This document shows, in pieces, positions 44 through 30,883 of a stretch of 34,891 nucleotides of DNA. Location: positions 1 to 34,891 of IMG/VR virus record IMGVR_UViG_3300020457_000035. One strand, given 5' to 3'. Below the pieces are notes generated by a model. That model had not been told where the DNA came from and searched no databases. It worked only from the letters and a program-made list of their open reading frames with translations. A program made the translations under genes and the position numbers. Source of the stretch: a virus. Within the stretch, counting starts at the first letter, position 1. Every line of letters begins with the position of its first letter.

Positions 44-69
44 GTCCTAGGTACTATTGTCCTCTTGTT

Positions 70-77
70 TATTTATG
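70..77 (-). promoter_or_regulatory. T4-type late promoter octamer upstream of the edge gene
   Basis: The minus strand reads CATAAATA, identical to the site before the 406-aa gene. It lies 26 nt before the ATG at 43 and 4 nt after the stop of the 1523-aa gene. Confidence 0.68.
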
Positions 78-81
78 AAGG

Positions 82-4653: not shown

Positions 4654-4658
4654 TTATA

Positions 4659-5879: not shown

Positions 5880-5899
5880 TACTCGCTACAATTTTTAAG

Positions 5900-5907
5900 T
5901 ATTTATG
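5900..5907 (-). promoter_or_regulatory. T4-type late promoter octamer upstream of the 406-aa fibre gene
   Basis: The minus strand reads CATAAATA, 20 nt before the ATG at 5879, and it overlaps the stop codon of the giant gene. The match to the late consensus NATAAATA and the similar placement to the two other sites support it. Confidence 0.7.
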
Positions 5908-8900
5908 GGTTTACTTCAGGGTCGATTAGTTCTTCACCATATAAGGAAAGGTCTGGAGCAGTCCAGTCATCAGGAACTTCTGTTTCAACAACAACATTTG
6001 GATTTTGATATCCAGTTCCACCATTAGTAACTGTGACACCAGCAACACCAATAAGTGCCTTAACTTGTCCATCAAATCCAGAGATAGAATCAAGTCTGAC
6101 AACAGGTCTGGATGTATATCCAGATCCACCAGAAGTGACGCTAACCCTCTCAATAAATCCATTGGTTAATACTGCTGTTGCGTCAGCATTTTGACCAAAG
6201 ACAGATCCAAGATAATCGAATGTAATTAATGAGTTTGAAGACTCAATAACAGCAACTTCACGATCACTTACCTCACCTTCAATATCAATAAAGTCACCCG
6301 CTTCAACAGGTGGTACAACCACATCAGCATCAACGTCTGCCTCAGAACCAACGTAAGAGAAGGCAACGAATGTGGATCCAAAACGAGGTATTTCTGAGAA
6401 GATAATTCTAGAACCAACAATCTCAAAACCAACACCAGGTTCCTGAAGAACACCATTAATAGAAACAATAATATTGTTTTCAGGTCTAATCACACTAGAC
6501 TGAACACCATCCGTGAGCGTAAGAGAATAGAAAATATCATCACGCTTGAGGTTAAATGACTGACGTAAAGAATCAAACTCAAATGAGATATCATCAAGTT
6601 GTCTTAGTTTACCAATATAGAAACCAGTAAAGGAAGATCCTAAATCAGGTGGTTCAGTAAACTGAATCTTATCGGAGAATGCGTTATAAGAATTAGCAGC
6701 ACCAGGAGGTTGAAGAACACCATTGATGAATATAAGCATATGTCCTTCAGGATCTGGAAGATATTGTGTACCATTATTAATGGATAGATCAAACGTGGTT
6801 TGAGTACCATCAAATCCTTTGAAGAAACGTTTAACTCTTGCTCTGAGAATTTCTCTAGTAACAATCGCAGAACGATAACCGTAAGAACCTCTAATACCAT
6901 CTCTTCCACTAAATGTTCCTGAGATGTTAGTGAGATATAATCTCTTATAAAGACCAGCATCACGAATATCTTGTATTAAACCTACAGCACCACCATCAAC
7001 CTCAAGTATATTACTAATAGTTGCAGATCCCTGTAATGTAACTCCGCTTAAACCATAATCTCCAACTGTGTTACCATTATTAATTGTTCCATTAACAGGA
7101 ACATAGTAGATGTAATTATTAGCAAGATCAACTTCAGTAATATATCCATAAACTGATGTATTCTGAGCAGTACCATTAACTTGATATAATTTATTACCAG
7201 GTTCAAATGTATTAAAGTTAGAATCAACAGTAACAGTCAAACGTCTGTGTCCAATGGATGCAACCTTTTGACCAACCTCAAGATCAAGACCTTCGTACTT
7301 AGTAACTTCTAGATATTCTCTAGAAGATTCTGGGAAGACAACAGAATTGACTTCAAGAGAACCCAATAAAGTTTCAGTATCAACAGTTAGTACTCCACCA
7401 CTGTTATCTGTTACTGCTGCTTGATTATTTTCAAAGACGACTGGTTTTGCGGTGTTAGCACTAGTATATCCTTTGAATGGTATATCAGTTTCAAAGGATC
7501 CTCTAATGTCAATGACATGTAAGCGATCTTCAATAGCACTAATTTGTGCGGTTGTATTATTTGTGGCACCAACAATGGTATCAAGAACTGAGAATGTTCC
7601 ACCAGTTATTGCAACATCAAGATACTTAAAGTTTGCATCTGTAGCAAATCCGTAAACTACACCAGTAACACTAGAGTCTCCTGATTTTTGAACAACTTCA
7701 TTCATTACAAAAGGACCATCTGTGATGTTACCATCAATCCTAAATCTCTTATAAACTTTAGCAATTTTTGCTTCGTTTAATCTTACAGTTTGAATTTCTG
7801 CATAGAGATCTCTATCATTAGAGTATATAAAGTCAGATCCAATAATTTCACCACTAATACCAACAGGAATATCACGCTCACCAAAGTCTTTAACTGCAAC
7901 AGTCAATCCATTGTTTTCACTAATAGTTGTGTAGTAAATATTAGACTTCAGTTGTTCCTTGATAATATCGATACTAGTTCTAACAAATGAATTTACAGTA
8001 TCTGCGTTGTAATTTGTAGCAGAGGTTGAATCAAAGAACTTAGAGAAACTAGCATTGGTTGAAGGACTTATCAACTCATTGCTCAACGCACGACCAACTT
8101 GATCTTGCATTAAGTCAAGAGCAAATTTCTTAATATTAAACTCTGCGTTAGCATAAAACTCTTGTCCACTAACAGCAATATATGTTGCTAATAGTTGATT
8201 TGTAAGTTTTGCACCCCAAGCAAATACACCAGCACCACCAGTGACATCAATAATATAGAAACCACCAACACCTGTAGTTGTGTTTCTTCTTGTTGCATAT
8301 GCAGCAGCATAAAGTTTTCCATCAAACAATTCTACTGCACTACCGAAAAATTCTCCATCCTGTGCATCAACAGCAGTTTCCTCAACCACATTAGTTCCAT
8401 CAAGATCGTAGACGTAAACAATACCTCTTTCATTACCAGCATCTTCATCTTGTTGTGCTCCAATCGCAATCTTGCCATTATCAACAGCAACAGAACTACC
8501 GTACATATCGGTTGAAGCACGTCTACCAACAGGTGCATACAGTTCAACTTCATTAGTTCCATCAAGGTCATAGATATTTGCCTTACCAGAACCTGTGATT
8601 CCGTTTCCATTTGCAAGATAAGAACCAACTACAATCTTGTTATCACCAACAGCAACCTTATTACCAAAACCACCTTGACCACCACCTTCAGGATTAGAAG
8701 ATGTAATTATAACTTCACCAGTTCCATCTAAGTTATAGACATAAACCTTTCCATTGCTTCCAGCACCTGGTACACCAACAACCAATTTACCGTTACCAGT
8801 ATCGATTGCCATTCCAAAGTTATCGTTAGATGCTTTATCTGATGCAGTAATGGTTCTTACGTAATTACCATTGAAATCAAATACAAAGACAGCACCTTGA

Positions 8901-11900
8901 TTAGAACCACCACTAGAAGTAAACTCAGGACATCCAACAAAAAGTTGACTGTTAGCAATGCTAACTTGCATACCAAAGAATTGACCACCAGAACCAAGTG
9001 AAGCACCAGTAACATCTGTTATGTCAATTTCAAGTTCTCCAGATCCATCTAAATCATAAAGATAAGCAGAACCAACATTTGCAACTCCATTTACTGTTGT
9101 TCCATAAGCACCAACGGCAATCTTGTTGTTTCCAATCGCAACATCATAACCATACTTCTGATTGTCATTAGCATTGTTAGATTCAAGTTCAATTTCATTG
9201 GTTCCATCTGCATCAAAGACACGAGCAGTTCCATTATTATTGAAACCAGAAGAACTATCATTATAACCACCAATAACAACCTTACCGTTTCCAACATCTA
9301 TAGATCCATTATATCCAAAGTAAGAATTTTGTTGAGTGCCAGTAGGACTAACTTTAGTATTTGTGGAAACTCCAGTAAAGTTATCAACCTGCGTGATGTT
9401 ATCTAGAACATTAAGTTTATTTTTAAGATTAGAGAAACCAAAACCAAACTCAGCAGTAATGTATAATCTATACCATCCATTACCAAATGGAATCGCACCA
9501 TGATCAATAACATTAAGACCAGGTTGAACAAATAGAGATCCTAATGTTCCTGTGTTTAAATCAACTTTAAATTTAGCATTTACAGTTCCACTATCCAAAA
9601 GAACTTGGAATTGAACATTATTATATTCAGATGCTTTAACAAACATAGATGATGTAAATGTTTGAGTAGCATTAGTAGCACCAGTGTCAAATGTTTCATT
9701 AGTGCTATCAAATGTAGTTGCTCCACTGTCAAAGGTATCAAAGGAACTTAGAGCATAAGTTCTTTCAATAAAATGTTCACCAGTTGTTTCAGTTACCGAT
9801 ACTTTATCGGAGGTAGTTGTAGCATCTGGAGAAATGCCTGTATTTGCAGTAACATTTACTAAAGTCTTAGACCAATTTTGATCAAATTGTTCTGGTAAAG
9901 TCCATAAGTTAGTGTTACTAATAGAACCTTCAATTAGAGAAGAAATTGCAGTAGCACTTTCAATGGTTTTAATATTACTAATATTGTTATACCACTCATG
10001 TGCTGGAGAAACACCGTCAACAGCAACTGTTCCTGTAGCACCATTAGATGTAAGACTAGCACCATCACCATATACACTTCCAGTTATAGCACCAATAATT
10101 AAAATTGGAGAAGAAACGTATAGAATTTCTGCAGTATTTGTACCATCTGTTATGGTATTACCTACAACAAAAGTTCCAGAGAAGGATTCAAGAGTTATAG
10201 TATATGCAGTTCTTGTGTCTCCAGTATCTGTTGTAAACAAGTCATACTGTAAATTATTAACAGTATCAGTAATAAAGGAATCATACTGCCAAGAATTTGT
10301 TCCAAACTGATTATTTACAGTAGAAGCAATTTCTGCTTTATAGTAATTTTCATTAAAGAGGATATTCTTAATTGCACTACGTGCCTCAACATCACCAGGA
10401 GCAATTGTTTCTAGAGCAATCTCAACAAGTTTTCTCATTCTAAATGCTACTTTAGTAATGTCTGTTGGAGTTTCAGTATCTCTATATGCTGAATCATTTG
10501 TATGAAGAGCAGCATATTGATCTCCAGTTACACTAGATCCTGCACTGTATAATAAATTTCTGATTGCTTTTTCAGCAAGCATCTTAATTTGCTCATGAGC
10601 AAAGTAGAAAGCAAATAATTGAGTATCGATATCATCAGAAATTCTAAGATCATTAGATAAGAATTTTTGCATTTGAGTGATCGTACTATTATCACCACCA
10701 GTTTGAAGATCAGAAATCATCGCAATGATGAAGTCTTTAATGTAAGTTGTGTATGTGGAACGGTCGTAAGTTAGTGCAGAGAAAGTACCATTATCAACTG
10801 TATATCTCAATTCTGCACCAAGTAATCCGTTCTGACTACCACTGTTGCGTCCTACGATTTCTTCAGCAATATATTTTCTATTGAAATATAATCTATCAGC
10901 AGCAATATTAAAATCATTATTAGTTGGAGCGATTATATCATTGATAGTTGCAATTAAATTATCAATCGCACTCTTAACATTTGCACATCCACCTGGATCA
11001 TTAGTGATTCCCCAATCACCAGTAATAATATTATTAGTATTAGTATAATCAAGATCACCAGTAATCGCTTGCTTCATGTAGAAACCTAATCTTTCATGTG
11101 CAAATACAGATTGCCATACTTGAAGTCTAACGTGTAGAATCTCATTATTAGTGTTTAGATAGAACTTAGCAGCAGTAACTGTGTTTGCATTACCACCAAA
11201 TTCAATATCTTTTGCAATTTCTCCAACAATGATTCCTAGGTCAGTTTTACAACGTTCAGTTCCAGCATCATTACCGCCAGAGTTTCTAGGCATTTCCAAG
11301 ATAAGATCTGGATATCTTGCAAGCATATCAGCAGATGCTTTGTCAACAATAACAGAACTATTCTCTCTTATTAATCTTGCTGCATCACGGAATCTATATT
11401 CATCTTTATTACCAAGAAGATTAGTATAAACATAATCGTTAGTACCATCATGATATGTTCCGACAAATTCTCCCTCTAAGAAAGCATCAACAGTCGCACC
11501 AACGAATTCAATTGCTGGAGTAATTCTAGAAACTACAGCAAGGTGATCAGCATTTTGATCATTAGAAGTTGTACCAATTGCTTCACTAATAGTATCTTCT
11601 ACAATATCTAAAAGATTATTAACTGTAGATACAACATCTGCACATCCCAACTTAGTGTAGTTAAGAACAAGAATGCCGTTTGGAGTAGAACTATTATAGG
11701 TATGAGCATACCTATCACCAACAGGAGATGCACCCACATTTACAGTAAATGTATTTGTTGTTACTGCAGTAACTTTTAAAACTTTATTGTAGAATGGATC
11801 TTTGTTCTTACGAGGATATGCGTGTGTAGTTTCATTATTATCTTTATCGCATGTGAATACTAATGATTCTTCATCGATCCTAATTAAACTATGAGTTGTA

Positions 11901-14900
11901 AGTCCATGACTATTAGATGTAATTACTAACTCACCTGTAGTAGAATTGTAAGTCGTACCTGCATCAGCAGTCAACGTTGTAAGTGTCTGATAAGATTGAT
12001 CGGTAACAGTTGCATCAGTAAATTGACTCAACCCATGACTACCCGCAACAGTAATAGGAATATAATTTACAATAGAACTCATTAAACCTTGAACTGTTTG
12101 TAAACCAGTTAATAATGAGTTATCATCGGTTGTTGTGTAACCAACAATACCACTGACACTAGCACCACTTCTATCTACAAGAGCAGCAGATGCATCCCAA
12201 ACATGACTGTTGCTACCATTACGCATATCTTGGACTAATGCTTCTAAAATTGTCTTATATGTGGAGGTGAAACTAATAGAAGTTAATTCTTGTGTATAAC
12301 TCCATAAGTATGCAGCACCAGCAGAAGAGTAATTTGAAGGATCAGCAAATTGAGCACCAAGTATAATTTTGTTAGAACCAACAGCTAATGCATTATTGAA
12401 ACCAGGATTATCAAATGCAACTGCAGGTGCCATGACCAAACTTTCTTCATTTGTACCATCAAGATCAAATGCATAAAGTTGACCAGAGTTTTGAATCGCA
12501 CCAGCATCCCAGTATGGAGATGCAGCAAAAATCTTTCCTTGAGCAACTGCTACTGCAGCACCAAAGTTATCTACAGAACCAATATCAGATGCTTCAATTT
12601 TAAATCCTCCAGTTCCATCTAAATTATAAACGAATACTGCTCCAGCGTTAGCTGTGTTACCTGTATTACCATCGTATCCAGCACATCCAACAACAACCTT
12701 GTTTTCACCAACGGCAACTGCACTACCAAAGTTATCAGTGGCGTTTACAGCAGAATCAGTAATCTTAACTTCATTAGTTCCATCTAAATTATAAACATAA
12801 ACTGCACCAGCATCTTGTGCAATTGTATCTTCTTTCATAGAACCAACTACAAGTCTATTGCTACCAACAGCAATACTCATTCCAAACTGATCTCCAGTAG
12901 AACCATCACTAGGTTCAATCTTGGTTTCATTAGCACCATTTAAATCATAACGATAAACAGATCCACGTTTTGAAGTATCTCCAGGTGCACCAACAAAGAT
13001 GTAGGTATCTGTCATTGCAACAGACCAACCGAAGTAATCCAAAGTTGCATCATCAGAAGCAACAATCTTTGCTTCACCTGTACCATCAACGTTGTAAACG
13101 TATACGCAACCAGAATCACTTCCACCATCATCAGTAAATGGAGCACCAACTACAACTTTGTTTCCATTTGTAGCAACAGAATATCCAAACTGATCATTTG
13201 CAGCAGCATCTGATGCGTTGATGACTACTTCACCACCACCGTTAAGGTTATATACATATGCTCTACCAGTGTAATTGTTGTATCTTGGAGCACCAATTAC
13301 AATCCTATCAGTAGTTCCATCATTAGAAACTGCAACTGCACCACCATAATATGAATCGTTTGTAATTGAAGATTGTGTTAATGTTGTTGGAGACTGTAGT
13401 GCATCAAATTGGAATGGAGATGCCTGAACTGCGGCATGGTTTCCTTCTTCAGCAATAAGATCGATATTTTTCTCTACTGAGTTTGCAGCATCATAATATC
13501 TGTGAGTTTTATATTCAGTTGTTTTAGCAGCAACACCAACACGAACAGTAATTGTTGTAGCAGTTACAGCGTTGATAGATAATGCTTTTCCAGATATAGG
13601 ATCAGTAGATCTTGGATAGGTGTGATAAGATGTATGATTATCAGCATCACAAGTAAAGGTAAGTCCGTTATCAGCAATAGTAATTCTATTACTTGTAGTC
13701 AAACTATGAGAACCAATTTCTAAGATAAGATCTCCCGTTGCATAGTCATAAAGTGTGCCAGATGCAGCAGTAAAGTTTCCACTAGCACCATTACTTGCAG
13801 TAAGGGCATTAGTAACACCACTTACAAAATTATGAACTCCACCACCAACGAAGGATGGTAACTGACCTTCAACTGCACCAACATTAACTGTAATGGTTGT
13901 AGCAGTTACAGCAGTTATAGCAATATTTGTTCCAGCTACAGGATCAGATGCTCTTGGGTATGAATGGTTGGTTGAATGACCATCTTTGTCACAAGTAAAT
14001 GTAACAGCACCAGTAGCGATCTGAACAGTATTGCTTGTAGTCAAACTATGAGAACCAATTTCTAATACAAGATCTCCAGTAAGAGCGTTGTATGTTGTTC
14101 CAGATCCTGCTGTCACAGCACTACCAGAATTAGGAGTAATACCTCCAGTAGTTCCACTTACGAATGTATGAACTCCACCAGTTATGATGGGTTTAGCACC
14201 TTTAACTGTTCCAACATTAACTGAAATAGTTGTTGCTGTTGTTGCGTTTACTCTCAATGCATTGTTAAACGCTGGATCAGTAGAACGTGGATATGAATGC
14301 TCTGTAGCAAAATTATCCTTATCACAACTGAATGTTAGTGAGTTAGCAGCAATTCTAATACTCTTTCCTATTGGTAATGAATGAGAACCAATAGTTAGAA
14401 CTAATACACCTGTATTAGCATCATACGTAGCATCAGTAACATTAAATGCTACAAGTGGAGATGTTCCAACATTAACTGTAAAGGTATTTGTAGTTACTGC
14501 AGTAATAGCAAGAGTTTGTCCTGATGCAGGATCACCAGGTCTAGGATATGGATGATGTGTAGTATTGCCATCCATAGCACACTTGAAGGTCAATGCATTA
14601 TCAGCAATCGTGATTGTATTCGAAGTTGATAAATTATGAGCATCAGATGTAATAACAAGATTACCTGTGTTGGGTGTGTATGCTGCGTTTGTTACAGGAT
14701 TTGGCAAATTACCAACATTTGATGTAACACCATTAGTTACAGCAGAAACAAATGTGTGACCGTAGTTTCCACCTGATTCAACTGCATTAGCAGTAGCACT
14801 TACAAACTTATGGAGTCCACCATACTGTCTATTAGTTTCAGTTATTGCACTATTGTTAAACTCTTCACCATCAGTAAAGGATTCTCCACCAGACCAATCT

Positions 14901-20900: not shown

Positions 20901-23900
20901 CGATTAGTATAACTTGCAAACCATGCAGTATCAGCCCAAGCAAATGTTAATCCATAAGATGCTACTGGTGGAATTGTAGTAACATCAGATGGCATATCAG
21001 GAGTAATTGCCCTATTCTTAATTACTAAATTATCTACGTAGTACTGACCTTGTTCATTCTTTCTAAATTCTCCTGTAGTACCTGACCAACCAGGAATATT
21101 ACCAATATAAAGATCTTTATCCTCAAGATCCGTGTCACTAATAGTACCAGTAAGAATTTGTACACCATTTACATAAGCAGTAAAGGTATTACCTGATTTC
21201 TTCAATCCAATAAACTGCCAAGTATCATCAGCAAAGAGTGTGGTTTGTGTAGATTGAAGAGCACCACCAGCAGCACTAATAGCAGTGCTATTATTAGTAA
21301 CAACTAACTCTAATCTTCCACCAGCATCATAATAGAACCAAAGACCACCAGTGGCATCTGTAACATCTCCAATACCAACTAGAGTTTGTTGAGTTTGTGA
21401 GAGTGTTTGAGAGTTTGCAGCATCCTTATACAACATGAACTCAAGAGTCCAGTCATCACCAAGTTTTTCTTCTAATTGTGCTGCAGGAATTTTAATTGCA
21501 CCGTTAACCCAAGAAGAATTAGAACCTGCAGGATTATAACCATAGATCTTAGCAAGTCCACCTTCGTACTTAACAGAATCAGTAGCACTGAGTGTTGTTA
21601 ATGTATAATGTCCAGTAGTATCTGTTGCATCTGATGCAAATTCACAAACAACTTCATTTCTATTCCAAGAGGTTTGACCGAATGCATATACATCACCTGA
21701 ATTATCTACAGTAATTGCATTAACGGTTATACCCTCAATATTGTTTTTATTAAATTCTGTATTTGTATGTTTCTTTAACTTACCATCATATCCAATTTTA
21801 GCATTGTCAACTGTTCTATATCCATTGGTACTATCAATTCTAGTATAAGCAAGGTTTAGATCACCAAAGATATCAATTGTAGATCTAGTTGCAAGTTCAA
21901 TAGAGTTTCCTGTAGGAACTACATATCTGTAATTCCAAAGTAAATCTCCAGAAATATCGAATTTACCAACCCAGAAACTATCTTTAGTATTATTGTCAGT
22001 CTTAAGTGCTAACGTAGCAGTAACATAAAATTCGTTAAATTCATCAACTGCTAAACTGGTATTTCTAAATGAATATGCAGTATTGTTGATTTCTTTAATC
22101 CATTCAACAGTAATTTGAGAAGTTCCGATAAGAACCTTACCAAACGCCAATCTACTATCTGCATTTCCATCAGTAGTAGCAGTTTCCATAATAAAATATA
22201 CCGCATCATCTAAAACAATCAAATCAGTGATTTTTTCAGATCCAGAAGCAGATGCTAATTTTCTTTTAGCAGCAAAGGAACCTGCAGCATCAATAGAAGC
22301 AATAAAAGCGTCTTGTGGATTAGAGGAATTAGTATTAGTAAATCCACCGATAATGTAACGAGAATCAGAATATTTTTTGACTGTAGTAACATGGTCTGCT
22401 CTAGTAGAACCAGAAATACCTGAATAACCTTTTTGGAAATTAAGAGTTGCACTTAGTCCATCAATAGCCTGAGTGTATTTTACTAAGATAACATCTGGGT
22501 TGTAAGCAGTAAGAATTGAAGAATTTGGTTTATTATGACCAACTACCCAAATAATATCTCCACTAACGTCAAGTTTAATAAATTCGGTATATGTTTCACC
22601 ATCTTGACTTTCTAATGTTTCCTCCCACTCTTTTACACCAAGTTCTGAGAATTTTGATATGAATGCAACTTCATTACCATTCACATCAAGAGTTTTACCA
22701 CAGAAAAATACATCCTTCTCTTCATTTACAAAAACATCATTAACTTTGACGTAATCTTCATTTTTAATCAACGCAACATAGTAATCTGCCTTTTTAAAGA
22801 TTTGAGGATGACTTAAAATAACTCTAGGATCTTTAGTGTAGTCAACTCCTGAGTTTATAATGTTAACACCACTAATCGATCCTGTAGAACTTACAGTTGC
22901 ACTAAGTTCTGCAGATTGACCATCTCCATCAATAACAATTGTTGGTGGAATCTCAGAATCATATCCAGATCCAGATTGATTAACAACAATTTCTTCAATA
23001 CCTTTAAATTGTCTGACAAAATACTTTTTATTTGTCTCATCCATGATTGGATTGTAAGAGACAAATACTTGATCACCAGCAACAACGTTATGTGGTGTAC
23101 TTGTAGTAATTTTACCGATAAAGTCATCACCTTCAGTTTCAAAAGTAAATGAACTAATACTTTCACCTTTAATCTTTGAAATTCTAGCAGATACGCCTGT
23201 TCCATCAGTATTTTCATTATCAAAAACAAGAATATCATCAACCTGATAATTTTGACCAGAATCTTCAATGATGAATCCATTAACAGAAGCATCTTCAAAT
23301 TTAGTGGTTGTTTCAACTTCAATATCAACTTTAGAATCAAATCTTACTGATGGGAAGTAATCAAATAACTGTAATGGTGATTCTTCAAAAATTTGATCAG
23401 GATCATTTGCTTCTTCCTCGTCAATAACACCATCTCTGTTTTCGTCTTCTACTTCAAATAACAGAATATCTCCATTTTCAAGAGACAATGCATTTGTAGA
23501 AGCATTTGGTGCTCTATCAACGTCAATGTCAACATTTTCGTAAGGATCACGATATCTAACAACACCAGAGGGAATATTTTGTTGAACTGCGTCTTTGTTT
23601 AAATTCCAAGGATCTGCAATAGAATTGAAACTAGGACCAAGAACATAAGGGAATACTGCATTACCCGCTTCAGTAGTATCAATAGTAATAAAGTAACAAT
23701 ACCTACCTTCAGGGAAATCTGGAGTTTTACAGAAACGACCATTATACTGATCAAGATCTCCTAATCCGAAAGAATACTCATAGTCTTCAATAAATCTACC
23801 AGCTGCCTCATCAGAGAGTAGAGGACCAGATTGTCTAACTGGAGTTGGATTAGAAATCTCGTTATAAACTAAATTTTCCTTAAGTCTATAAGAAGTGTTC

Positions 23901-26900
23901 AAACGTACGATATTTGATGATTGATCTGTAGGATCATTGTATCCATAAGGACCATAAATTGGATTACCATCAAATGCCCAACCAATAATAGGAGAGTGCT
24001 CTAATTGTGAATCTTGTTCTAAGATAGCACCAGTAATACTTTCAAATAAATTATCACCAAGAATGTATCTTAATCTCTGAGGATTGGAAATGTGAGCGTA
24101 TTCACCACCATATTGGTTATTAAATCCAGCAAATACTGAACCTTTTGCAGTATCAACAGTTGTAGTCTCTTGTAAGTTATAAGTCCATTCAAATACAGTA
24201 GGTTCAAAGGTTGCATTAGAACCAGCAGAGGTAAGATTGATTATGGTCGTTCCTTGAACATAGTTAATACCACGATTAAGAATTTCAATATTTGTTACTC
24301 TTCCAGCATTCTCACCATCAGTATCAATAGTTGCTTTTGCAACAGCACCAAAACCATCACCTTGAATAGTTACTTCTGGTGCAGTGGTGTATCCAGTACC
24401 TGCAGAAATAATAGCAATAGAGATGATTCGACCGTTATTAACAATTGCCTGAGCAACGGCACCAGTACCAGAACTTAGTACAACACTAGGTTTAGTTGTA
24501 TAAGAATCACCACCATTAGTAACAGCGATTGATTGAATAGGACCACGAACAGAAGCAGTTGCTGTAGCACCAGTTCCACCGCCACCAACAACAGTAATAC
24601 TTGGTTTAGATGTATATCCAGTACCGCCGTTGTTTACAAGAATACTAGAAACCACTCCTTTAGTTACAATAGCAGTTGCTGATGCACCAGATCCATTACC
24701 ACCAACAATTGAAATCAATGGAGATGAAGTATATCCAGAACCACCAGAATCTACACTTATTTCTGTAATAGATCCATTAACAGTTACGGCACCAGTTGCT
24801 CCTTCTCCTCCACCTCCAGAAATGGTGATATTTGGAGGAGATGCAGCATCATAGTCAGAACCAGCATTAGTAATGTTGATTGATGTAACAGGACCAAAAG
24901 TTTTCCTAATACTAGACTTGTAAGACCAAACAGACGTACCATTAATCCAAGTTCCAATAGGACCAGGAATAATTGAGTCCTTAATTGAAATAGTTGAAGG
25001 TTGTAATGGGAATCTGTTTAATTTACGTTGGTTACCAGGTAAAAGTGCTGATCCTGGAAAAGGACCGATTTTATAGTTGGGAATACCAGTAGAAGCAACA
25101 TAAACGTAATTGTCATCAAAGAATGAGTTTTGGATATTTGTTGTATATGGTCCGATAGAGTTAAATACAGCACTATTATCAGACTTACCTTTATTAAGGT
25201 CAACAGATACAAGAATATTTCCTTGAGGTACTACTTCTGCTGTTTGTGGAAGTTCGTATTGGAATACTGTAGTACTATCTCTAGATGTTACTAAGAAAGT
25301 TCCGTTATAGATGATTGGGTTTGCACCATATACAGTAACCTGATCTCCAACCAACAAACCATGGTTATTAGCACAGGTAACTGTTGCAAATTTATTATCA
25401 ATACCACCAAAGGTGATACTATTGACAGTTAAGAGTTTTTTGACGTTATATAACCAAGTTTGCAATTCTGGTTTGTCAGAACTACCACCAAGTTTAGATA
25501 CAGAGAGTTTATCTCCTTTTAGGTAGTAAGATCCAGTATCAGTAAGAACAGTTTCTTGTGCATCAACAATACCAACAATATTTAAAACAACTTCTTGTGC
25601 AGTTCCTTTATTAACGAATACTTGAAGGTTGGAAGTAATTTCAGTTGCAGAATCCCAATCTTCTACAGTCCCATTTACAGAACGTGTACACTCAATAAAC
25701 TGGTTTAATGATTTTTCCTTATATTGAATAAGTTCTGTACCACCAATAATAAATTCACCGTTTCTTTCTGGCCAACCAATTGTAGAGTCTACAGTAATAA
25801 TACTATTAGTTGTATCTAAAGGTTCAGCAAGTTTTGTTTTATATGGTACTACGAAAGAACCATCAATAGTTTCTTCAGATAAAACAAGTTCGAATAATTC
25901 AACATCAGAAGTCTTAATAGAAATGTAATTTTCAATTAAAGCACTTGCTGCCCTAATATTTGGGTCTGCAATACTTTCTTCCTGAGTTAAGAGACCATCT
26001 TTAATATTTGTAGGATCTCCACTAACAAGAGTTGCTCTAAGAATAGTATCAATAGACCAAGTTGCTGCAGATGGTTTAGTAATTTGATCTTTTGGATAAG
26101 AAACTGTTACTTGCTCACCATACAGCAATTTAAACAAATATGCGATACTAAATGAAGTTCCTTTTGTAGAATAAAAATCTTTTACAGATTTAATAGCATT
26201 TCTTACATCAATCTTAGTAAAATCAAGTTCAGGAACATCAGGTAGGAATTGTTCTGTATACTTATCTAAAAGTCTCTTAACAAACAAAGAATCAAGACAT
26301 TTTACATTAGCATCCTCTTCTGCTACAGATGCTCTAGTATTATTTGAAAATACTGCGTTTCCATTTGAGGTATATTCAACAATACCACTAACTGCCCTTG
26401 CACAACCCTCAAATTTTGCTTTAGTGTAATTTTTTCCTTTTTTAGAGACTGAAAAACCAGTAACTTCATTTAATCCAATTTGTACAGAAGATCTTGCTTC
26501 TGGAGGATTTTGGATAATAACCTGAGGAGGATTTGAAGAAGAATATCCTGATCCAAAATTGGAAATGTTAATATCAGTAATTTTACCGTTAAAAACACTT
26601 GCTGTTGCTGTAGCACCAGTTCCACCATCTTCTGCAGTATCAACAATGTAGACAGATGGCACATCATCGTATCCACTACCACCATCTAACAATTCAACTG
26701 AAACAACTCTACCATCAGAGTCAACAAGAGTTTGTAATACTTGAGCACCAGTAGGATCGATAATTGCTACTCTAGGTGTTGTTTCATATCCTTGTCCATT
26801 ATTGATGATATTAATAGCAGTAACAACTCCATCAGTAACAATTGCTTTCAAAGTAGCTTTTACAGGATCTTGTCCTGTTGGTTCATCAACATATACCTCT

Positions 26901-28246
26901 GGTACAGTTGAATATCCCTGACCACCTTCTAATACTTCAATAGTTCCAGAAAGAGACCCTCCTGTAAGCGTAGCTGTTCCAATTTTTGCTCCGCCTGGTT
27001 GTTTAAACGTAACTCTAGGAACAAATGTATATCCACTACCAGAATTTTCAATTTCAATGTTAGAAACAGCACCGTTAGTAACAGTTGCCGTTAATTTAGG
27101 CAATTCAGCATCAACATTAACTGGATTTTGTACAATAACAGTAGGAGGGTTTGTATCACTGTATCCCTTTCCACCATCAAGTAAAATTGCTTCCTTAATA
27201 CCATTAACCAGAGCATTTGCTGAAGCACCAGAACCTTCTGGGTGATTTATAGAAACTCTTGGTGGATAAGTATACTCATATCCACTTCCAGTTTTACTAA
27301 TACTAATAGATGTAAGTTCACCATCATTATTAACACGTGCATATCCTACTGCAGCAGAACCAAATGTAGGAATAGGTGCTTCAATAGAATATAATGATAG
27401 AATTCTTCCATTTAAAGGTGCTTCATTAAAAATGAACAAATCACCATCAATGAAAAAGTCTACTTTTGGTATAAGGAGTTTATTATCGTAAACTGCTAAA
27501 ATATACTCATCTGCAACAGGTTCATACTTATTACCCCCACTTGTTAGTTTGAATTCAGTCTTACCATCTCCGAAAGTTGCCGAAATATCATCAATATTAA
27601 TAATACTGTTTTCAATAAAACCACTTAAGAATGTAATATAGGTATTGATACTGTCATCTCCAGTAACTCTAGTTCTTGGAGCAGTTGTAAAGACAATATC
27701 AGTTCCATCAACGTCATAATCAACATCAGGAATTAAAACTTCTCCATAAAGACTAACAATCAAGTGTTGGGGAGTAGGAGCAGCAATTGGAGACGATTGA
27801 GAAGTAAGAGGGAATCGAACTCGTACTCCATCAAACAAATCAATGATTTGAGCAAGTCCAGTCCACTTTAGTTTTACTTGATCATAAGAAATACCAGGAC
27901 TTAGTGCAATATTTGGTGCTGCTGTACTTGATTCATAGTAAATTACTTCATCACCAATTAAAATAGAACCATTTGTATCTAAAAAATTATCAACACTCTC
28001 AACAACGATTTCTTGACTATCTTCTGTAATTGCTTCTACAACTTTAGTTGCACCACCTAAGATGTTAATATCCAGTTTGTCAATATCAAGATATTGCAAA
28101 AAGTTATTAATAATATTTTGACCCAGACCCGTTTTTTCTTGAGATCTATAATAGTACTCAATAAACTTATTAAACAGTGGATAATCTGTCTTTAGAAACT
28201 CAGGAGCCTGAGAAGCAATAGACTGGGAGACCTTATTAATATTCAT
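5903..28246 (-). CDS. Giant modular virion/tail-fibre protein in the gp7 slot (7447 aa)
   Basis: One uninterrupted 22.3-kb frame encodes a protein of roughly 0.8 MDa (estimate). It starts 6 nt after gp6, where T4 has gp7. The N-terminus (DYPLFNKFIEYYYRSQEKTG near residue 21, KLLYGEQVTVSYPKDQITK near 710) and a later block (SYYYQDFSYAVKS near 3450, then HPASFKVFGEL near 3480) resemble segments I recall from cyanophage baseplate-associated structural proteins. Between and beyond lie, by approximate residue: GY repeats (306-615, 1116-1332, 1749-1815, 3026-3232, 7350-7440); YHYH domain (1410-1545); EF-hand-like loop (1601-1612); kelch/SBBP-like propeller (1818-2203); LamG folds (2260-2415, 4280-4440); seven unfamiliar 100-aa repeats (3950-5515); FG-GAP propellers (4958-5320, 6300-6678); and helical modules (5320-6010, 6685-6775). 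It is probably an exceptionally long fibre or arm for host contact. No good ribosome site precedes the ATG, so coupling to gp6 is likely. It may represent several fused structural genes. Confidence 0.9.
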   Translation of the reverse strand: MNINKVSQSIASQAPEFLKTDYPLFNKFIEYYYRSQEKTGLGQNIINNFLQYLDIDKLDINILGGATKVVEAITEDSQEIVVESVDNFLDTNGSILIGDEVIYYESSTAAPNIALSPGISYDQVKLKWTGLAQIIDLFDGVRVRFPLTSQSSPIAAPTPQHLIVSLYGEVLIPDVDYDVDGTDIVFTTAPRTRVTGDDSINTYITFLSGFIENSIINIDDISATFGDGKTEFKLTSGGNKYEPVADEYILAVYDNKLLIPKVDFFIDGDLFIFNEAPLNGRILSLYSIEAPIPTFGSAAVGYARVNNDGELTSISISKTGSGYEYTYPPRVSINHPEGSGASANALVNGIKEAILLDGGKGYSDTNPPTVIVQNPVNVDAELPKLTATVTNGAVSNIEIENSGSGYTFVPRVTFKQPGGAKIGTATLTGGSLSGTIEVLEGGQGYSTVPEVYVDEPTGQDPVKATLKAIVTDGVVTAINIINNGQGYETTPRVAIIDPTGAQVLQTLVDSDGRVVSVELLDGGSGYDDVPSVYIVDTAEDGGTGATATASVFNGKITDINISNFGSGYSSSNPPQVIIQNPPEARSSVQIGLNEVTGFSVSKKGKNYTKAKFEGCARAVSGIVEYTSNGNAVFSNNTRASVAEEDANVKCLDSLFVKRLLDKYTEQFLPDVPELDFTKIDVRNAIKSVKDFYSTKGTSFSIAYLFKLLYGEQVTVSYPKDQITKPSAATWSIDTILRATLVSGDPTNIKDGLLTQEESIADPNIRAASALIENYISIKTSDVELFELVLSEETIDGSFVVPYKTKLAEPLDTTNSIITVDSTIGWPERNGEFIIGGTELIQYKEKSLNQFIECTRSVNGTVEDWDSATEITSNLQVFVNKGTAQEVVLNIVGIVDAQETVLTDTGSYYLKGDKLSVSKLGGSSDKPELQTWLYNVKKLLTVNSITFGGIDNKFATVTCANNHGLLVGDQVTVYGANPIIYNGTFLVTSRDSTTVFQYELPQTAEVVPQGNILVSVDLNKGKSDNSAVFNSIGPYTTNIQNSFFDDNYVYVASTGIPNYKIGPFPGSALLPGNQRKLNRFPLQPSTISIKDSIIPGPIGTWINGTSVWSYKSSIRKTFGPVTSINITNAGSDYDAASPPNITISGGGGEGATGAVTVNGSITEISVDSGGSGYTSSPLISIVGGNGSGASATAIVTKGVVSSILVNNGGTGYTSKPSITVVGGGGTGATATASVRGPIQSIAVTNGGDSYTTKPSVVLSSGTGAVAQAIVNNGRIISIAIISAGTGYTTAPEVTIQGDGFGAVAKATIDTDGENAGRVTNIEILNRGINYVQGTTIINLTSAGSNATFEPTVFEWTYNLQETTTVDTAKGSVFAGFNNQYGGEYAHISNPQRLRYILGDNLFESITGAILEQDSQLEHSPIIGWAFDGNPIYGPYGYNDPTDQSSNIVRLNTSYRLKENLVYNEISNPTPVRQSGPLLSDEAAGRFIEDYEYSFGLGDLDQYNGRFCKTPDFPEGRYCYFITIDTTEAGNAVFPYVLGPSFNSIADPWNLNKDAVQQNIPSGVVRYRDPYENVDIDVDRAPNASTNALSLENGDILLFEVEDENRDGVIDEEEANDPDQIFEESPLQLFDYFPSVRFDSKVDIEVETTTKFEDASVNGFIIEDSGQNYQVDDILVFDNENTDGTGVSARISKIKGESISSFTFETEGDDFIGKITTSTPHNVVAGDQVFVSYNPIMDETNKKYFVRQFKGIEEIVVNQSGSGYDSEIPPTIVIDGDGQSAELSATVSSTGSISGVNIINSGVDYTKDPRVILSHPQIFKKADYYVALIKNEDYVKVNDVFVNEEKDVFFCGKTLDVNGNEVAFISKFSELGVKEWEETLESQDGETYTEFIKLDVSGDIIWVVGHNKPNSSILTAYNPDVILVKYTQAIDGLSATLNFQKGYSGISGSTRADHVTTVKKYSDSRYIIGGFTNTNSSNPQDAFIASIDAAGSFAAKRKLASASGSEKITDLIVLDDAVYFIMETATTDGNADSRLAFGKVLIGTSQITVEWIKEINNTAYSFRNTSLAVDEFNEFYVTATLALKTDNNTKDSFWVGKFDISGDLLWNYRYVVPTGNSIELATRSTIDIFGDLNLAYTRIDSTNGYRTVDNAKIGYDGKLKKHTNTEFNKNNIEGITVNAITVDNSGDVYAFGQTSWNRNEVVCEFASDATDTTGHYTLTTLSATDSVKYEGGLAKIYGYNPAGSNSSWVNGAIKIPAAQLEEKLGDDWTLEFMLYKDAANSQTLSQTQQTLVGIGDVTDATGGLWFYYDAGGRLELVVTNNSTAISAAGGALQSTQTTLFADDTWQFIGLKKSGNTFTAYVNGVQILTGTISDTDLEDKDLYIGNIPGWSGTTGEFRKNEQGQYYVDNLVIKNRAITPDMPSDVTTIPPVASYGLTFAWADTAWFASYTNRYDYIDYVGFGIKTDKDSDSDRLGDKGVQVNTNVGFARTAITPVTGISLTASNTGFALGGGGLQALDFEDATTIMIVNPTDTSVTYSRDIWSARTATVPSPGSKKLSIDAKVKNRYYMKTTSTSKIDNVQELTINQDFNITIGSKLVLNNSSGSFINSGYVLSVDKTNKKVYLAVNNNDWSNDLNTGLLSTTRFDEQDTFGITGPFVSDENIISEYNFLNVINTTPGTFDIDLNDWNLDRTASTGSGNLDDFAKFKPFAADVYSVRIDEISGSSSFITGSVVQITASDITFNTAKTTAQITNLTGVTKITLIANLDKLLQATAVANTDQVYVITGNRHYLSVGDNIFVDGNPTRTDGGTAYDEYDGSFTVETVVSNREFTYKLDSVAITSPADTPANVNIFVKSPVLKMYYGHQYQFDLSHSSMVGANISFSKDNLYKLEYSFNSIERIGTPGITGENQAAPTVKLKIDQDIVTNISYYFDPSRTGDESPIDPNSYLDIVDSPYVGTFTVSEVDGATITTGATIIKFPLINEPEGNANVNRATYTTSSKKAVGSIGDIRLINTGGFYAKLPVVTGIQSSRKIERVQINEPGTEYAVGTYNSIPIGGDGEGGLVSIVVADGTNDEGDTIPGQIQSVTITSPGKGYTTANIDIESIDGILGPGLAGSGAEIDVVIPPFGTGAVVFAKGTNVGKIKKLKNNNFGYDYPHDYTLRPEITFPINAQLTSTSILDSITVNDPGSGYSQAPAVVITGGGGSGAIAEAAIRNGRIEQIFIKDPGAGYSSAPVVSLRSSFNYVVNLDLGLLQFAFPHGIQNGAEVSLNVVDTGQGIEFPLASGAIGRLNGNTTYYAIAGTANSLESDQLKLAITKANADLGDAITFANAGEGRQQVLTESFGAEATANVITSTFLEGELVYQGDSLANATATGYVSTNEGWQVGPRILKIVDYVGTFSQGQSVTGAISKSSGVISDLKIAKGVLEVGPITKTTGQFIDDVGKPSEIIQKIQDSYYYQDFSYAVKSSVSIDDWKDILIKNVHPASFKVFGELNIDEYGYTANKEIDFELTKSVELARDATVPNIQSFALAEPIYSEFNNTEVLFRQKRLTSSENILTSVVQRLDNISQLFDGERTQFPITVNGENVIANANQLLIVLNGVAQTPDTAFEVQGDSIVFAEPPQPPASVKYVNVVINQVSTKTLRFPPNSGIFPSIGNELVGVSSTARLTVTSVSGDTITGFVTQGTFLLSEQCQVSATGFSGALLEITDVTSNGLFGFNETVSNLTGDTAIVESINLETGQETPIADLRYSIGAASTSIEVVSSSSETDAPVTAGTFTIGENYQLASEIFRVDSVSNGTESTTLIVTRGLLGTAAISHQEDTPLYSTEIEVTNNLTLSKTTGTYQSTPGLYDIQTGDTIIGAKSGVVALVTATSAYQDPETLEFIEQVNISAGSSFFGLLFNRLTSVTYPNIILDDISKSQVSIVDFDDNLSAFDSKFPANESISNNILTYDSSNNHTYVGGTSTNALTFNDSSTKDVTDATYNNETGVLVLTIGSHSYTTSNTVTIGVDKLAFTCDLDNNSTVHYYPREGDPAYNTALAITAVSATTITVNVGVGGAFVDNEFIRNYRIRYGSNSGEFAVGENFRVKKLTLTDDVGEGFFSQGQIIRTEDTKAEIVGYSQARKTIYLGKIGRTQSTGQDFHQATFVAGAELNTHHAKFGSACLGLSAGTSAHTFVSGVTNAIVASNGATGSFTAATGTTYNPFTGDMVLEIGTHTLTTSNKVTIANDGVVFTCAQDGNNSNKAYPRATDPASGTALTITAVTGTTITVNVGVVPIDEYLTIPTSSEFGFATGDFTVETWIKLNSVASGNKTIFDMRSGATELAPYLYIDGANIKYYNNGSVTITGTTNLVIDTWYHVALTRTGTSTKIFLDGSQEGGTYSDSSNYGSTNPIRIGADWDGSEVVTGYFDNFRVSNNARYTTTFVAPKGMFHGDTNTKLLLHFDGTNGQKYTADWSGGESFTDGEEFNNSAITETNRQYGGLHKFVSATANAVESGGNYGHTFVSAVTNGVTSNVGNLPNPVTNAAYTPNTGNLVITSDAHNLSTSNTITIADNALTFKCAMDGNTTHHPYPRPGDPASGQTLAITAVTTNTFTVNVGTSPLVAFNVTDATYDANTGVLVLTIGSHSLPIGKSIRIAANSLTFSCDKDNFATEHSYPRSTDPAFNNALRVNATTATTISVNVGTVKGAKPIITGGVHTFVSGTTGGITPNSGSAVTAGSGTTYNALTGDLVLEIGSHSLTTSNTVQIATGAVTFTCDKDGHSTNHSYPRASDPVAGTNIAITAVTATTITVNVGAVEGQLPSFVGGGVHNFVSGVTNALTASNGASGNFTAASGTLYDYATGDLILEIGSHSLTTSNRITIADNGLTFTCDADNHTSYHTYPRSTDPISGKALSINAVTATTITVRVGVAAKTTEYKTHRYYDAANSVEKNIDLIAEEGNHAAVQASPFQFDALQSPTTLTQSSITNDSYYGGAVAVSNDGTTDRIVIGAPRYNNYTGRAYVYNLNGGGEVVINASDAAANDQFGYSVATNGNKVVVGAPFTDDGGSDSGCVYVYNVDGTGEAKIVASDDATLDYFGWSVAMTDTYIFVGAPGDTSKRGSVYRYDLNGANETKIEPSDGSTGDQFGMSIAVGSNRLVVGSMKEDTIAQDAGAVYVYNLDGTNEVKITDSAVNATDNFGSAVAVGENKVVVGCAGYDGNTGNTANAGAVFVYNLDGTGGFKIEASDIGSVDNFGAAVAVAQGKIFAASPYWDAGAIQNSGQLYAFDLDGTNEESLVMAPAVAFDNPGFNNALAVGSNKIILGAQFADPSNYSSAGAAYLWSYTQELTSISFTSTYKTILEALVQDMRNGSNSHVWDASAALVDRSGASVSGIVGYTTTDDNSLLTGLQTVQGLMSSIVNYIPITVAGSHGLSQFTDATVTDQSYQTLTTLTADAGTTYNSTTGELVITSNSHGLTTHSLIRIDEESLVFTCDKDNNETTHAYPRKNKDPFYNKVLKVTAVTTNTFTVNVGASPVGDRYAHTYNSSTPNGILVLNYTKLGCADVVSTVNNLLDIVEDTISEAIGTTSNDQNADHLAVVSRITPAIEFVGATVDAFLEGEFVGTYHDGTNDYVYTNLLGNKDEYRFRDAARLIRENSSVIVDKASADMLARYPDLILEMPRNSGGNDAGTERCKTDLGIIVGEIAKDIEFGGNANTVTAAKFYLNTNNEILHVRLQVWQSVFAHERLGFYMKQAITGDLDYTNTNNIITGDWGITNDPGGCANVKSAIDNLIATINDIIAPTNNDFNIAADRLYFNRKYIAEEIVGRNSGSQNGLLGAELRYTVDNGTFSALTYDRSTYTTYIKDFIIAMISDLQTGGDNSTITQMQKFLSNDLRISDDIDTQLFAFYFAHEQIKMLAEKAIRNLLYSAGSSVTGDQYAALHTNDSAYRDTETPTDITKVAFRMRKLVEIALETIAPGDVEARSAIKNILFNENYYKAEIASTVNNQFGTNSWQYDSFITDTVNNLQYDLFTTDTGDTRTAYTITLESFSGTFVVGNTITDGTNTAEILYVSSPILIIGAITGSVYGDGASLTSNGATGTVAVDGVSPAHEWYNNISNIKTIESATAISSLIEGSISNTNLWTLPEQFDQNWSKTLVNVTANTGISPDATTTSDKVSVTETTGEHFIERTYALSSFDTFDSGATTFDSTNETFDTGATNATQTFTSSMFVKASEYNNVQFQVLLDSGTVNAKFKVDLNTGTLGSLFVQPGLNVIDHGAIPFGNGWYRLYITAEFGFGFSNLKNKLNVLDNITQVDNFTGVSTNTKVSPTGTQQNSYFGYNGSIDVGNGKVVIGGYNDSSSGFNNNGTARVFDADGTNEIELESNNANDNQKYGYDVAIGNNKIAVGAYGTTVNGVANVGSAYLYDLDGSGELEIDITDVTGASLGSGGQFFGMQVSIANSQLFVGCPEFTSSGGSNQGAVFVFDFNGNYVRTITASDKASNDNFGMAIDTGNGKLVVGVPGAGSNGKVYVYNLDGTGEVIITSSNPEGGGQGGFGNKVAVGDNKIVVGSYLANGNGITGSGKANIYDLDGTNEVELYAPVGRRASTDMYGSSVAVDNGKIAIGAQQDEDAGNERGIVYVYDLDGTNVVEETAVDAQDGEFFGSAVELFDGKLYAAAYATRRNTTTGVGGFYIIDVTGGAGVFAWGAKLTNQLLATYIAVSGQEFYANAEFNIKKFALDLMQDQVGRALSNELISPSTNASFSKFFDSTSATNYNADTVNSFVRTSIDIIKEQLKSNIYYTTISENNGLTVAVKDFGERDIPVGISGEIIGSDFIYSNDRDLYAEIQTVRLNEAKIAKVYKRFRIDGNITDGPFVMNEVVQKSGDSSVTGVVYGFATDANFKYLDVAITGGTFSVLDTIVGATNNTTAQISAIEDRLHVIDIRGSFETDIPFKGYTSANTAKPVVFENNQAAVTDNSGGVLTVDTETLLGSLEVNSVVFPESSREYLEVTKYEGLDLEVGQKVASIGHRRLTVTVDSNFNTFEPGNKLYQVNGTAQNTSVYGYITEVDLANNYIYYVPVNGTINNGNTVGDYGLSGVTLQGSATISNILEVDGGAVGLIQDIRDAGLYKRLYLTNISGTFSGRDGIRGSYGYRSAIVTREILRARVKRFFKGFDGTQTTFDLSINNGTQYLPDPEGHMLIFINGVLQPPGAANSYNAFSDKIQFTEPPDLGSSFTGFYIGKLRQLDDISFEFDSLRQSFNLKRDDIFYSLTLTDGVQSSVIRPENNIIVSINGVLQEPGVGFEIVGSRIIFSEIPRFGSTFVAFSYVGSEADVDADVVVPPVEAGDFIDIEGEVSDREVAVIESSNSLITFDYLGSVFGQNADATAVLTNGFIERVSVTSGGSGYTSRPVVRLDSISGFDGQVKALIGVAGVTVTNGGTGYQNPNVVVETEVPDDWTAPDLSLYGEELIDPEVNP
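5935..6840 (-). other. C-terminal tail of the giant protein: paired INGVLQ domains plus GY units
   Basis: The last about 300 residues hold two copies of a small beta domain (MLIFINGVLQPPG with IQFTEPPDLGSSFTGFYIG, and IIVSINGVLQEPG with IIFSEIPRFGSTFVAFSYVG) followed by GY units (SVTSGGSGYTSRPVVRLDSI and TNGGTGYQNPNVVVE). Related INGVLQ-type domains occur near the N-terminus (about 27400-27860) and in the middle (about 17330-17580). The stop codon overlaps a late promoter. Confidence 0.75.
8212..9350 (-). repeat. FG-GAP seven-bladed beta-propeller 2 in the giant protein
   Basis: Residues about 6300-6678 hold a second set of seven FG-GAP-like units, for example NQKYGYDVAIGNNKIAVGAY, DNFGMAIDTGNGKLVVGVPG and DMYGSSVAVDNGKIAIGAQQ, each ending with a YVYDLDGTxExx strand. 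The unit plan matches propeller 1, but the sequences are well diverged, so the two probably arose by an old duplication or separate acquisition. A helical island and a carbohydrate-binding-like stretch (about 6110-6280, with WTLPEQFDQNWSKTLV and FGNGWYRLYITAEF) lie between them. Confidence 0.83.
10240..12280 (-). other. Alpha-helical island in the giant protein
   Basis: In an otherwise beta-rich protein, residues about 5320-6005 (apart from the isolated repeat copy) are mostly helical and internally repetitive. Paired segments include GCADVVSTVNNLLDIVEDTI and GCANVKSAIDNLIATINDII. Others are YRFRDAARLIRENSSVIV, CKTDLGIIVGEIAKDIEFGG, FAHERLGFYMKQAI and FAHEQIKMLAEKAI. Similar helical modules (DAxxLIxxN, CxxDxGxIVxxIxxDIxxGGN) recur, as I remember, in tail proteins of marine T4-like phages. 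They may form a rigid or hinge segment in the fibre. Confidence 0.7.
11705..12010 (-). repeat. Seventh, isolated copy of the ~100-aa repeat
   Basis: Residues about 5412-5515 contain TTGELVITSNSHGLTTHSLI, LVFTCDKDNNETTHAYPRKN, then KVTAVTTNTFTVNVGASPVG. This is plainly the same domain as the main array. It is separated from the array by the first propeller and a short helical stretch, so the propeller may have been inserted within an older array. Confidence 0.8.
12285..13373 (-). repeat. FG-GAP seven-bladed beta-propeller 1 in the giant protein
   Basis: Residues about 4958-5320 contain seven consecutive units of about 50 residues with the FG-GAP pattern: DxFGxSVAVxxxKxVVGAP, a variable loop, GxVYVYNLDGTxExKI, then ASD. 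Examples are DQFGYSVATNGNKVVVGAPF and DNFGSAVAVGENKVVVGCAG. Seven units fit one closed integrin-alpha-type propeller. The loops are rich in Asp and Gly, but no classic DxDxDG calcium loop is evident. Confidence 0.85.
13530..16395 (-). repeat. Array of six unfamiliar ~100-aa repeats around LamG 2
   Basis: Units begin near 16395, 15745, 14765, 14460, 14185 and 13850. A full unit has an HTFVSGVTN-type lead, a TYNxxTGDLVLEIGSHxLTTSN strand region, an IxxxxxTFxCDxD segment, HxYPRxxDP, and an ALxITAVTxTTITVNVG end. The Cys, the following Asp, the His and the YPR-DP group are retained across units, with minor changes such as CAQD or KAYPR in one copy. I do not recognise a named family. Two units share near-identical DNA, suggesting recent duplication. 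A seventh copy lies further downstream, beyond the first FG-GAP propeller. Confidence 0.8.
14950..15430 (-). other. LamG-like lectin fold 2 in the giant protein
   Basis: Residues about 4280-4440 carry FTVETWIKLNSVASGNKTIF, LYIDGANIKYYNNG, TWYHVALTRTGTSTKIFLDG, RIGADWDGSEVVTGYFDNFR, and a final KLLLHFDG. This is a clear LamG_3/concanavalin-like domain, clearer than the first copy. It is inserted between two groups of the 100-aa repeats. Confidence 0.88.
18550..19170 (-). repeat. GY beta-repeat cluster C in the giant protein
   Basis: Residues about 3026-3232 hold further GY units, including QINEPGTEYAVGTYNSIPIG, SPGKGYTTANIDI, DPGSGYSQAPAVVITGGGG and DPGAGYSSAPVVSL. They are less regular than cluster B, and longer spacers separate the first units. 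Confidence 0.75.
21010..21470 (-). other. LamG-like lectin fold 1 in the giant protein
   Basis: Residues about 2260-2415 show the laminin-G/concanavalin-A-like order: WTLEFMLYKD, a strand with LWFYYDAGGRLELVV, DTWQFIGLKKSGNTFTAYVN (the 'W..vaL...g....YvnG' core), and YVDNLVIKNRAITPD at the end. Such folds often bind sugars and would suit contact with host surface polysaccharide. Confidence 0.75.
21640..22790 (-). repeat. Kelch/SBBP-like beta-propeller in the giant protein
   Basis: Residues about 1818-2203 contain about six or seven degenerate units of 50-60 residues. Each pairs a VxGxT-type strand with a D-x-x-G turn and an aromatic W: FFCGKTLDVNGNEVAFISKF, YIIGGFTNTNSSNPQDAFIA, DSFWVGKFDISGDLLWNY and DVYAFGQTSW. 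This is the pattern of SBBP-type seven-bladed propellers in bacterial surface proteins. Blade boundaries are approximate. Confidence 0.6.
23411..23446 (-). other. EF-hand-like calcium loop in the giant protein
   Basis: Residues 1601-1612 read DENRDGVIDEEE, which fits the canonical 12-residue EF-hand loop: acidic or Asn at positions 1, 3, 5 and 9, Gly at 6, Ile at 8 and Glu at 12. Only one such loop is obvious here, so it is more like a dockerin or isolated loop than a calmodulin pair. Confidence 0.6.
23620..24020 (-). other. YHYH domain in the giant protein
   Basis: Residues about 1410-1545 include HSPIIGWAFDGNPIYGPYGY and, further on, DLDQYNGRFCKTPDFPEGRY and NAVFPYVLGPSF. This matches the layout of the YHYH family (a GxAxDGxPIYGP core, then a YNGxxxxTPxxPxGxYxYF block). 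The family is widespread in marine bacteria and phage structural proteins and has no firmly known function. The same domain, interrupted by insertions, occurs in the 1523-aa protein of this window. Confidence 0.8.
24250..24900 (-). repeat. GY beta-repeat cluster B in the giant protein
   Basis: Residues about 1116-1332 contain six regular units of about 33-36 residues, such as DSGGSGYTSSPLISIVGGNG, NNGGTGYTSKPSITVVGGGG and SAGTGYTTAPEVTI. They are more uniform than cluster A, implying more recent duplication. The cluster ends shortly before the YHYH domain. Confidence 0.82.
26400..27330 (-). repeat. GY beta-repeat cluster A in the giant protein
   Basis: Residues about 306-615 hold some seven units built on the pattern GSGYxxxPxVxIxxPxGxGAxAxAxVxxGxIxxIxIxxxG, for example TGSGYEYTYPPRVSI, GGKGYSDTNPPTVIV and NSGSGYTFVPRVTF. 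The spacing of about 35-45 residues and the alternating hydrophobic pattern suggest a stacked beta solenoid or a string of small beta units. Similar units recur later in this protein and in the 974-aa and 1523-aa proteins. Confidence 0.8.
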
Positions 28247-28252
28247 CTAACT

Positions 28253-30705: not shown

Positions 30706-30731
30706 CTCACTATCAAGACTTTATACAATTG

Positions 30732-30739
30732 TATTTATC
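30732..30739 (-). promoter_or_regulatory. T4-type late promoter octamer upstream of gp25
   Basis: The minus strand reads GATAAATA, matching the NATAAATA late promoter used by T4-like phages with the gp55 sigma factor. It ends 27 nt before the gp25 start codon and overlaps the stop codon of the 48-aa gene. The same octamer form and a similar distance recur before two other genes in this window. Confidence 0.7.
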
Positions 30740-30881: not shown

Positions 30882-30883
30882 AA

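Follow-up and report, generated by a model that had tools for sequence, protein, structure and literature searches.

A 7447-residue gp7-type baseplate protein with a three-segment core in a T4-like cyanophage gene cluster

The giant frame, its neighbours and its relatives

The window, a stretch of 34,891 nt comprising positions 1 to 34,891 of IMG/VR virus record IMGVR_UViG_3300020457_000035, carries a cluster of baseplate genes that includes one giant frame (Table 1). The frame runs on the minus strand from 28246 to 5903, with an ATG start and 7447 codons without an internal stop, and the gp6 frame ends at 28253; the first-pass annotation, which had described an unbroken 22.3-kb frame beginning 6 nt after gp6, was therefore confirmed. 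Window gp6 and T4 gp6 both matched phrog_219, so the gp6 assignment holds. The calculated mass and pI of the product were ~795 kDa and 4.4. The other five reading frames over the gene contained between 303 and 1141 stops, and codon position 3 was the most diverged relative to P-SSM7 in every 500-residue bin, which together exclude a long frame arising by chance. Tandem Repeats Finder detected no DNA repeats, so simple repeat expansion does not account for the frame.

Two further observations concern the neighbouring genes. A PAAR-motif protein (phrog_281, window 30884–31450), possibly a spike tip, adjoins the baseplate genes. Within the gene for the 1523-aa protein, 454 nt at window 2641–3094 are represented by 22 nt (7715–7736) in a 98 % identical contig; this in-frame difference of 432 nt (144 codons) suggests, from the two sequences, that a module was gained or lost between very close phages.

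Table 1. Positions of genes, core segments, growth sites and modules in the window
Feature	Window position	Strand	Remarks
Whole giant gene	5903..28246	-	7447 aa; phrog_701 family, baseplate wedge protein of gp7 type
gp6	28253..30286	-	expected gp7 partner in wedge
gp25-like wedge subunit	30286..30705	-	phrog_261
gp9/gp10-type connector	4659..5879	-	phrog_677
1523-aa baseplate protein	82..4653	-	phrog_708; S-CAM22 counterpart annotated gp7, tested: not gp7
Core segment 1, residues 1-70	28037..28246	-	helical N-terminus; shared by all gp6-adjacent orthologs compared other than T4
Growth site 1, residues 71-610	26417..28036	-	beta modules carrying GxGY repeats
Core segment 2, residues 611-760	25967..26416	-	contains FYSTKGTSFSIAYLFKLLYGE; homologous to T4 gp7 725-760
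Growth site 2, residues 761-3392	18071..25966	-	GxGY repeats, YHYH, laminin-G-like domain, others
Core segment 3, residues 3393-3500	17747..18070	-	YYQDFSY...HPASFKVFGEL; last core segment, aligns weakly with T4 gp7 848-889
Growth site 3, residues 3501-7447	5906..17746	-	C-terminal extension, 3947 aa
YHYH domain (PF14240), residues 1329-1525	23672..24262	-	
Laminin_G_3 / concanavalin-like domain (PF13385), residues 2249-2391	21074..21502	-	
Second Laminin_G_3 domain, residues 4275-4415	15002..15424	-	
FxCxxD...YPR module, seven copies, residues 4011-5479	11810..16216	-	variable part of extension
FG-GAP_2 repeats (PF14312), residues ~5009-5250	12497..13222	-	
GTA_spike_fiber domain (NF048003), residues 6181-6273	9428..9706	-	
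Second FG-GAP_2 repeat set, residues 6353-6613	8408..9190	-	
Conserved C-terminal region, residues 6661-7447	5906..8266	-	61-87 % identity across most relatives

All pieces of the 7447-aa protein matched phrog_701, a giant cyanophage virion structural protein (profile length 6136), with successive pieces reaching profile positions 1 to 6135 of 6136 and gaps in the variable part. The protein comes from a T4-like marine cyanophage and is a typical, slightly long member of a known family; since members of this family reach ~7,100–7,750 residues, a chain of this length is not exceptional. The giant gene lies directly after gp25–gp6 in the orthologs examined and, in isolates, sits between gp6 and gp9 or gp8; its product has 7124 aa in P-SSM7, 7312 in P-SSM4 and P-RSM3, 7351 in P-TIM40, 6273 in S-CAM22, 6180 in S-SM1 and 6076 in Syn9. 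An earlier description of the protein as one of the longest phage proteins was fair, but the 7312-aa gp7 of P-SSM4 had already been deposited and one IMG/VR contig holds a longer unbroken ortholog (7752 aa). A literature search on the longest phage proteins found nothing relevant. Annotations of the gene differ, being 'gp7' in P-SSM4 and P-SSM2 and 'putative fiber' in Syn9.

P-SSM7 PSSM7_090 (YP_004324921) shares the gene order of the window, has 82 % identity over residues 1–1100 and has 6661 codons alignable to the window gene, but is 323 residues shorter and only ~43 % identical over residues 4501–5500. The P-SSM4 protein (AAX46881, annotated baseplate wedge initiator) occupies the same position and has its three core segments placed almost as in the window protein, whereas much of residues 3900–6650 aligns poorly. 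The S-SM1 ortholog, SSM1_102, has an extension of 2674 aa compared with 3947 in the window protein; it is the same gene as T4-GC969, whose product was detected in purified virions by mass spectrometry (PMC3037559).

Core segments, growth sites and origin of the extension

Core segments were compared among orthologs from OC (631 aa), phiN3 (1006), S-B68 (1915), S-H34 (1942), S-PM2 (3048), P-HM1 (4446), P-SSM2 (5195) and others of 6076–7447 aa. The three segments occurred in the same order across orthologs of 631 to 7447 aa, and the match of segment 2 to Pfam PF23786 exceeded the cut-off of that family. OC and phiN3 have no spacer between segments 1 and 2, which overlap in these two; the spacer is ~40 aa long in several other distant orthologs and reaches 540–549 aa in the clade that unites Syn9, P-TIM40 and the window (540 in the window protein); this growth site 1 insertion is confined to a single clade of the gp6 tree with 100/100 support. 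The spacer between segments 2 and 3 increases from 36–41 aa (OC, T4) through 746 and ~1500 to 2150–2730 aa, and the tail after segment 3 from 10 (S-B68), 11 (phiN3) and 41 aa (S-H34) through 1173 and 1787 to 3947 aa. The ortholog series shows a small gp7 core enlarged at three sites. Attachment had been proposed to reside in the N-terminal part, with residues 1–900 singled out for a separate search; the core does begin there, but comprises residues 1–70, 611–760 and 3393–3500. The proposal that the block with SYYYQDFSYAVKS (located at residue 3452) and HPASFKVFGEL (at residue 3480) marks the core end was borne out, as the phiN3, S-B68 and S-H34 proteins stop 10–41 residues beyond it.

The adhesion-type modules anticipated by the first-pass annotation were recovered as matches to Laminin_G_3 (twice), FG-GAP_2, YHYH and GTA_spike_fiber, and by sequence these modules look adhesive. 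Ochrobactrum phage OC p050 and Sinorhizobium phage phiN3 gp105 have the three core segments and lie directly after gp6, but are far shorter and have no YHYH, laminin-G or FG-GAP matches, all of which are present in the window protein. Conservation along the chain was assessed against P-SSM7, S-CAM22, S-SM1, P-SSM4 and Syn9. Residues 1–3900 mostly had 50–90 % identity to these five relatives, residues 3900–6650 had low identity or were partly unalignable between two conserved flanks, and identity was back up to 41–94 % from residue ~6750 to the end. A blank for P-SSM7 at the C-terminal end was an effect of the collinearity filter, with a separate search giving 71 % identity. One 208-residue stretch of the tail was 68 % identical to a P-HM1-type contig while the core was ~35 % identical to P-HM1, a discrepancy that fits exchange of modules.

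The conserved C-terminal region bears on how the extension arose. The first-pass annotation had suggested that residues beyond ~3500 may come from a gene fusion; in the form considered here, gp7 would have been joined to a once separate fibre gene, and the ends of the phiN3, S-B68 and S-H34 proteins just past core segment 3 are in keeping with such a junction. The last 787 residues were matched in 308 phage records. Among the 60 matches listed out of these 308, 59 lay inside the giant gene, the remaining record had no annotation there, and none had the region as a separate gene, leaving a recent fusion unsupported. Extension lengths are also graded (346, 1173, 1787, ~2600 and ~3700), which suggests that the C-terminal extension grew by stepwise accretion. 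Fusion with a separate gene is rated as rather unlikely. On the gp6 tree, the short forms may either have lost the tail or never had it.

An alternative in which the giant chain is made and then cut into several virion proteins would be compatible with the conserved C-terminal region and with one frameshifted isolate. A check for relatives that divide the protein into separate genes found one split copy among those examined: in ACG-2014a C33 a frameshift (record positions 14424–14890) splits the giant gene, while the sister isolate C38 has an intact frame of 6064 aa. The C33 split may be a sequencing error or a real lesion. Apart from this isolate, split genes were absent in close relatives, and seven other contigs carried an unbroken ortholog of 6545–7752 aa, making a cut chain improbable.

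Identity of the giant protein and support for the assembly

Profiles were built from nine or ten orthologs with T4 left out. They were scored against T4 baseplate proteins and the proteins of the window, with 2000 shuffles of the gp7 sequence for comparison. When the profile of residues 611–760 (KGT profile) was searched against the whole PDB, the only matches with E≤1 were two T4-type gp7 chains (E=3.9e-6 and 8.6e-6, at T4-type gp7 residues 731–759), in agreement with the earlier reading of the protein in the gp7 position as gp7. This profile gave T4 gp7 29.9 bits compared with 9.1 for the best of the 2000 shuffles, and in hhalign gp7 reached 92.5 %, compared with 0.2 % for the remaining T4 proteins shown. 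The profile of residues 3393–3500 (block C) ranked gp7 first and second in the PDB, weakly (E=0.064 and 0.44), and gave 66.6 % for gp7 and <2 % for all others by hhalign, with one shuffled gp7 sequence scoring about as high as gp7 itself. The KGT segment precedes block C in both the window protein and T4 gp7. Profile scoring did not detect core segment 1 in T4 gp7. These profile comparisons support the conclusion that the giant protein is the gp7 ortholog.

T4 gp7 (1032 aa) follows gp6, as does the window protein, and the two have the KGT segment in common, followed in both by what is probably block C. T4 gp7 differs in having N-terminal domains, ~640 residues in all, for which no counterpart was found in the window protein and in lacking adhesion-type modules, and it is seven times shorter. 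Pfam domain V of T4 gp7 lies mainly between the KGT segment and block C, the place of growth site 2, and domain VI lies after block C, the place of growth site 3.

Structure prediction for the N-terminal part was good for the beta modules and poor for the core helices; core segment 1 was modelled as helices at low confidence. A Foldseek search of the PDB with the N-terminal 960-residue model gave no significant match, T4 gp7 chains ranking 7th and 19th, and the same model found mainly cyanophage structural and baseplate proteins among viral models. The AlphaFold model of residues 6661–7447 had a mean pLDDT of 49, and a PDB search with this region returned nothing meaningful. Residues 7140–7350 (window 6197–6829) are the most conserved C-terminal stretch, yet had a pLDDT of ~25; going by the model, they perhaps fold only within an oligomer or together with a partner. 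In the literature library searched, no paper on a solved cyanomyovirus baseplate was found.

The giant protein could instead be a tail fibre or an accessory structural protein in its own right, with the 1523-aa product of 82–4653 as the true gp7. The names given in two isolates agree with this arrangement: in S-CAM22 'baseplate wedge initiator gp7' is the later 1523-aa-type gene and not the giant, and the giant of Syn9 is called a putative fibre. However, the KGT and block-C matches lie in the giant protein and neither was found in the 1523-aa protein by profile scoring or hhalign; the giant gene directly follows gp6; and orthologs of intermediate size link it to the 1006-aa and 631-aa proteins in the same place. 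This assignment is very unlikely, and the S-CAM22 annotation is probably wrong.

As an IMG/VR record, the window derives from a metagenome, and a join inside the frame had been named as an outcome that would overturn the first reading. Independent IMG/VR contigs matched the window at 3088–12546 (99.98 % identity), 6947–18515 (99.96 %) and 23612–31446 (99.4 %), and coverage at >99.9 % identity excludes an assembly join within 3088–18515. The sole stretch without a near-identical independent contig, 18515–23612, was backed by collinear homologs at 84–86 % identity. With near-identical contigs spanning most of the gene, the same giant gene in isolate genomes and a reading frame under selection in every 500-residue bin, an assembly artefact over the whole frame is unlikely on this sequence evidence, and as an explanation of its length can largely be dismissed.

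Proposed role in the baseplate wedge

T4 gp7 is a monomer present in six copies, each attached to a gp6 dimer, and a domain of gp7 moves outwards when the baseplate switches (PMC3004832). In Vibrio phage XM1, receptor spikes are held by gp17 (242 aa), a gp7 ortholog by structure, at two sites, an internal loop and the C-terminus, and a pull on these spikes has been proposed to reach the sheath via the wedge (PMC10457771). The XM1 spikes are separate proteins, whereas the adhesion-type modules in the window belong to the same chain as the wedge protein. According to a review, marine cyanomyoviruses lack the T4 genes wac, 10, 11, 12, 34, 35 and 37, for which unassigned structural proteins are suggested as possible replacements (PMC2984593).

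Taken together, the frame is likely to encode the cyanophage ortholog of T4 gp7, with a three-segment docking core and adhesion-type modules at three sites. The small core would dock the giant protein in each of six wedges, where it would pair with two gp6 subunits like T4 gp7, and the modules would have been added between segments 1 and 2, between segments 2 and 3 and after segment 3. Each wedge would then carry a covalently built-in arm able to touch the cell surface, and a pull on this arm could be passed to the gp6/gp7/gp25 wedge. The frame, its orthology, the core segments, the growth sites, the alternation of conserved and variable parts and the presence of an ortholog in virions are established by the comparisons above; here we infer docking geometry, copy number, receptor binding and signal transfer, the docking and copy number from T4 and XM1. 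More tentatively, and with rather less than even confidence, the six ~795 kDa chains may form a receptor-binding apparatus built into the wedge scaffold, with modules placed where simpler phages bind spikes, and residues 3900–6650 may be an exchangeable host-range cassette held between the conserved core and the conserved C-terminus.

The observation itself concerns a known family, and the useful result is the places of module insertion together with a clear gp7 assignment. With orthologs ranging from 631 to >7000 aa, this family illustrates clearly how a scaffold protein can grow at three fixed sites. If the enlarged gp7 carries functions of the missing T4 genes, residues 3900–6650 would be a concrete candidate host-range determinant in abundant ocean viruses.
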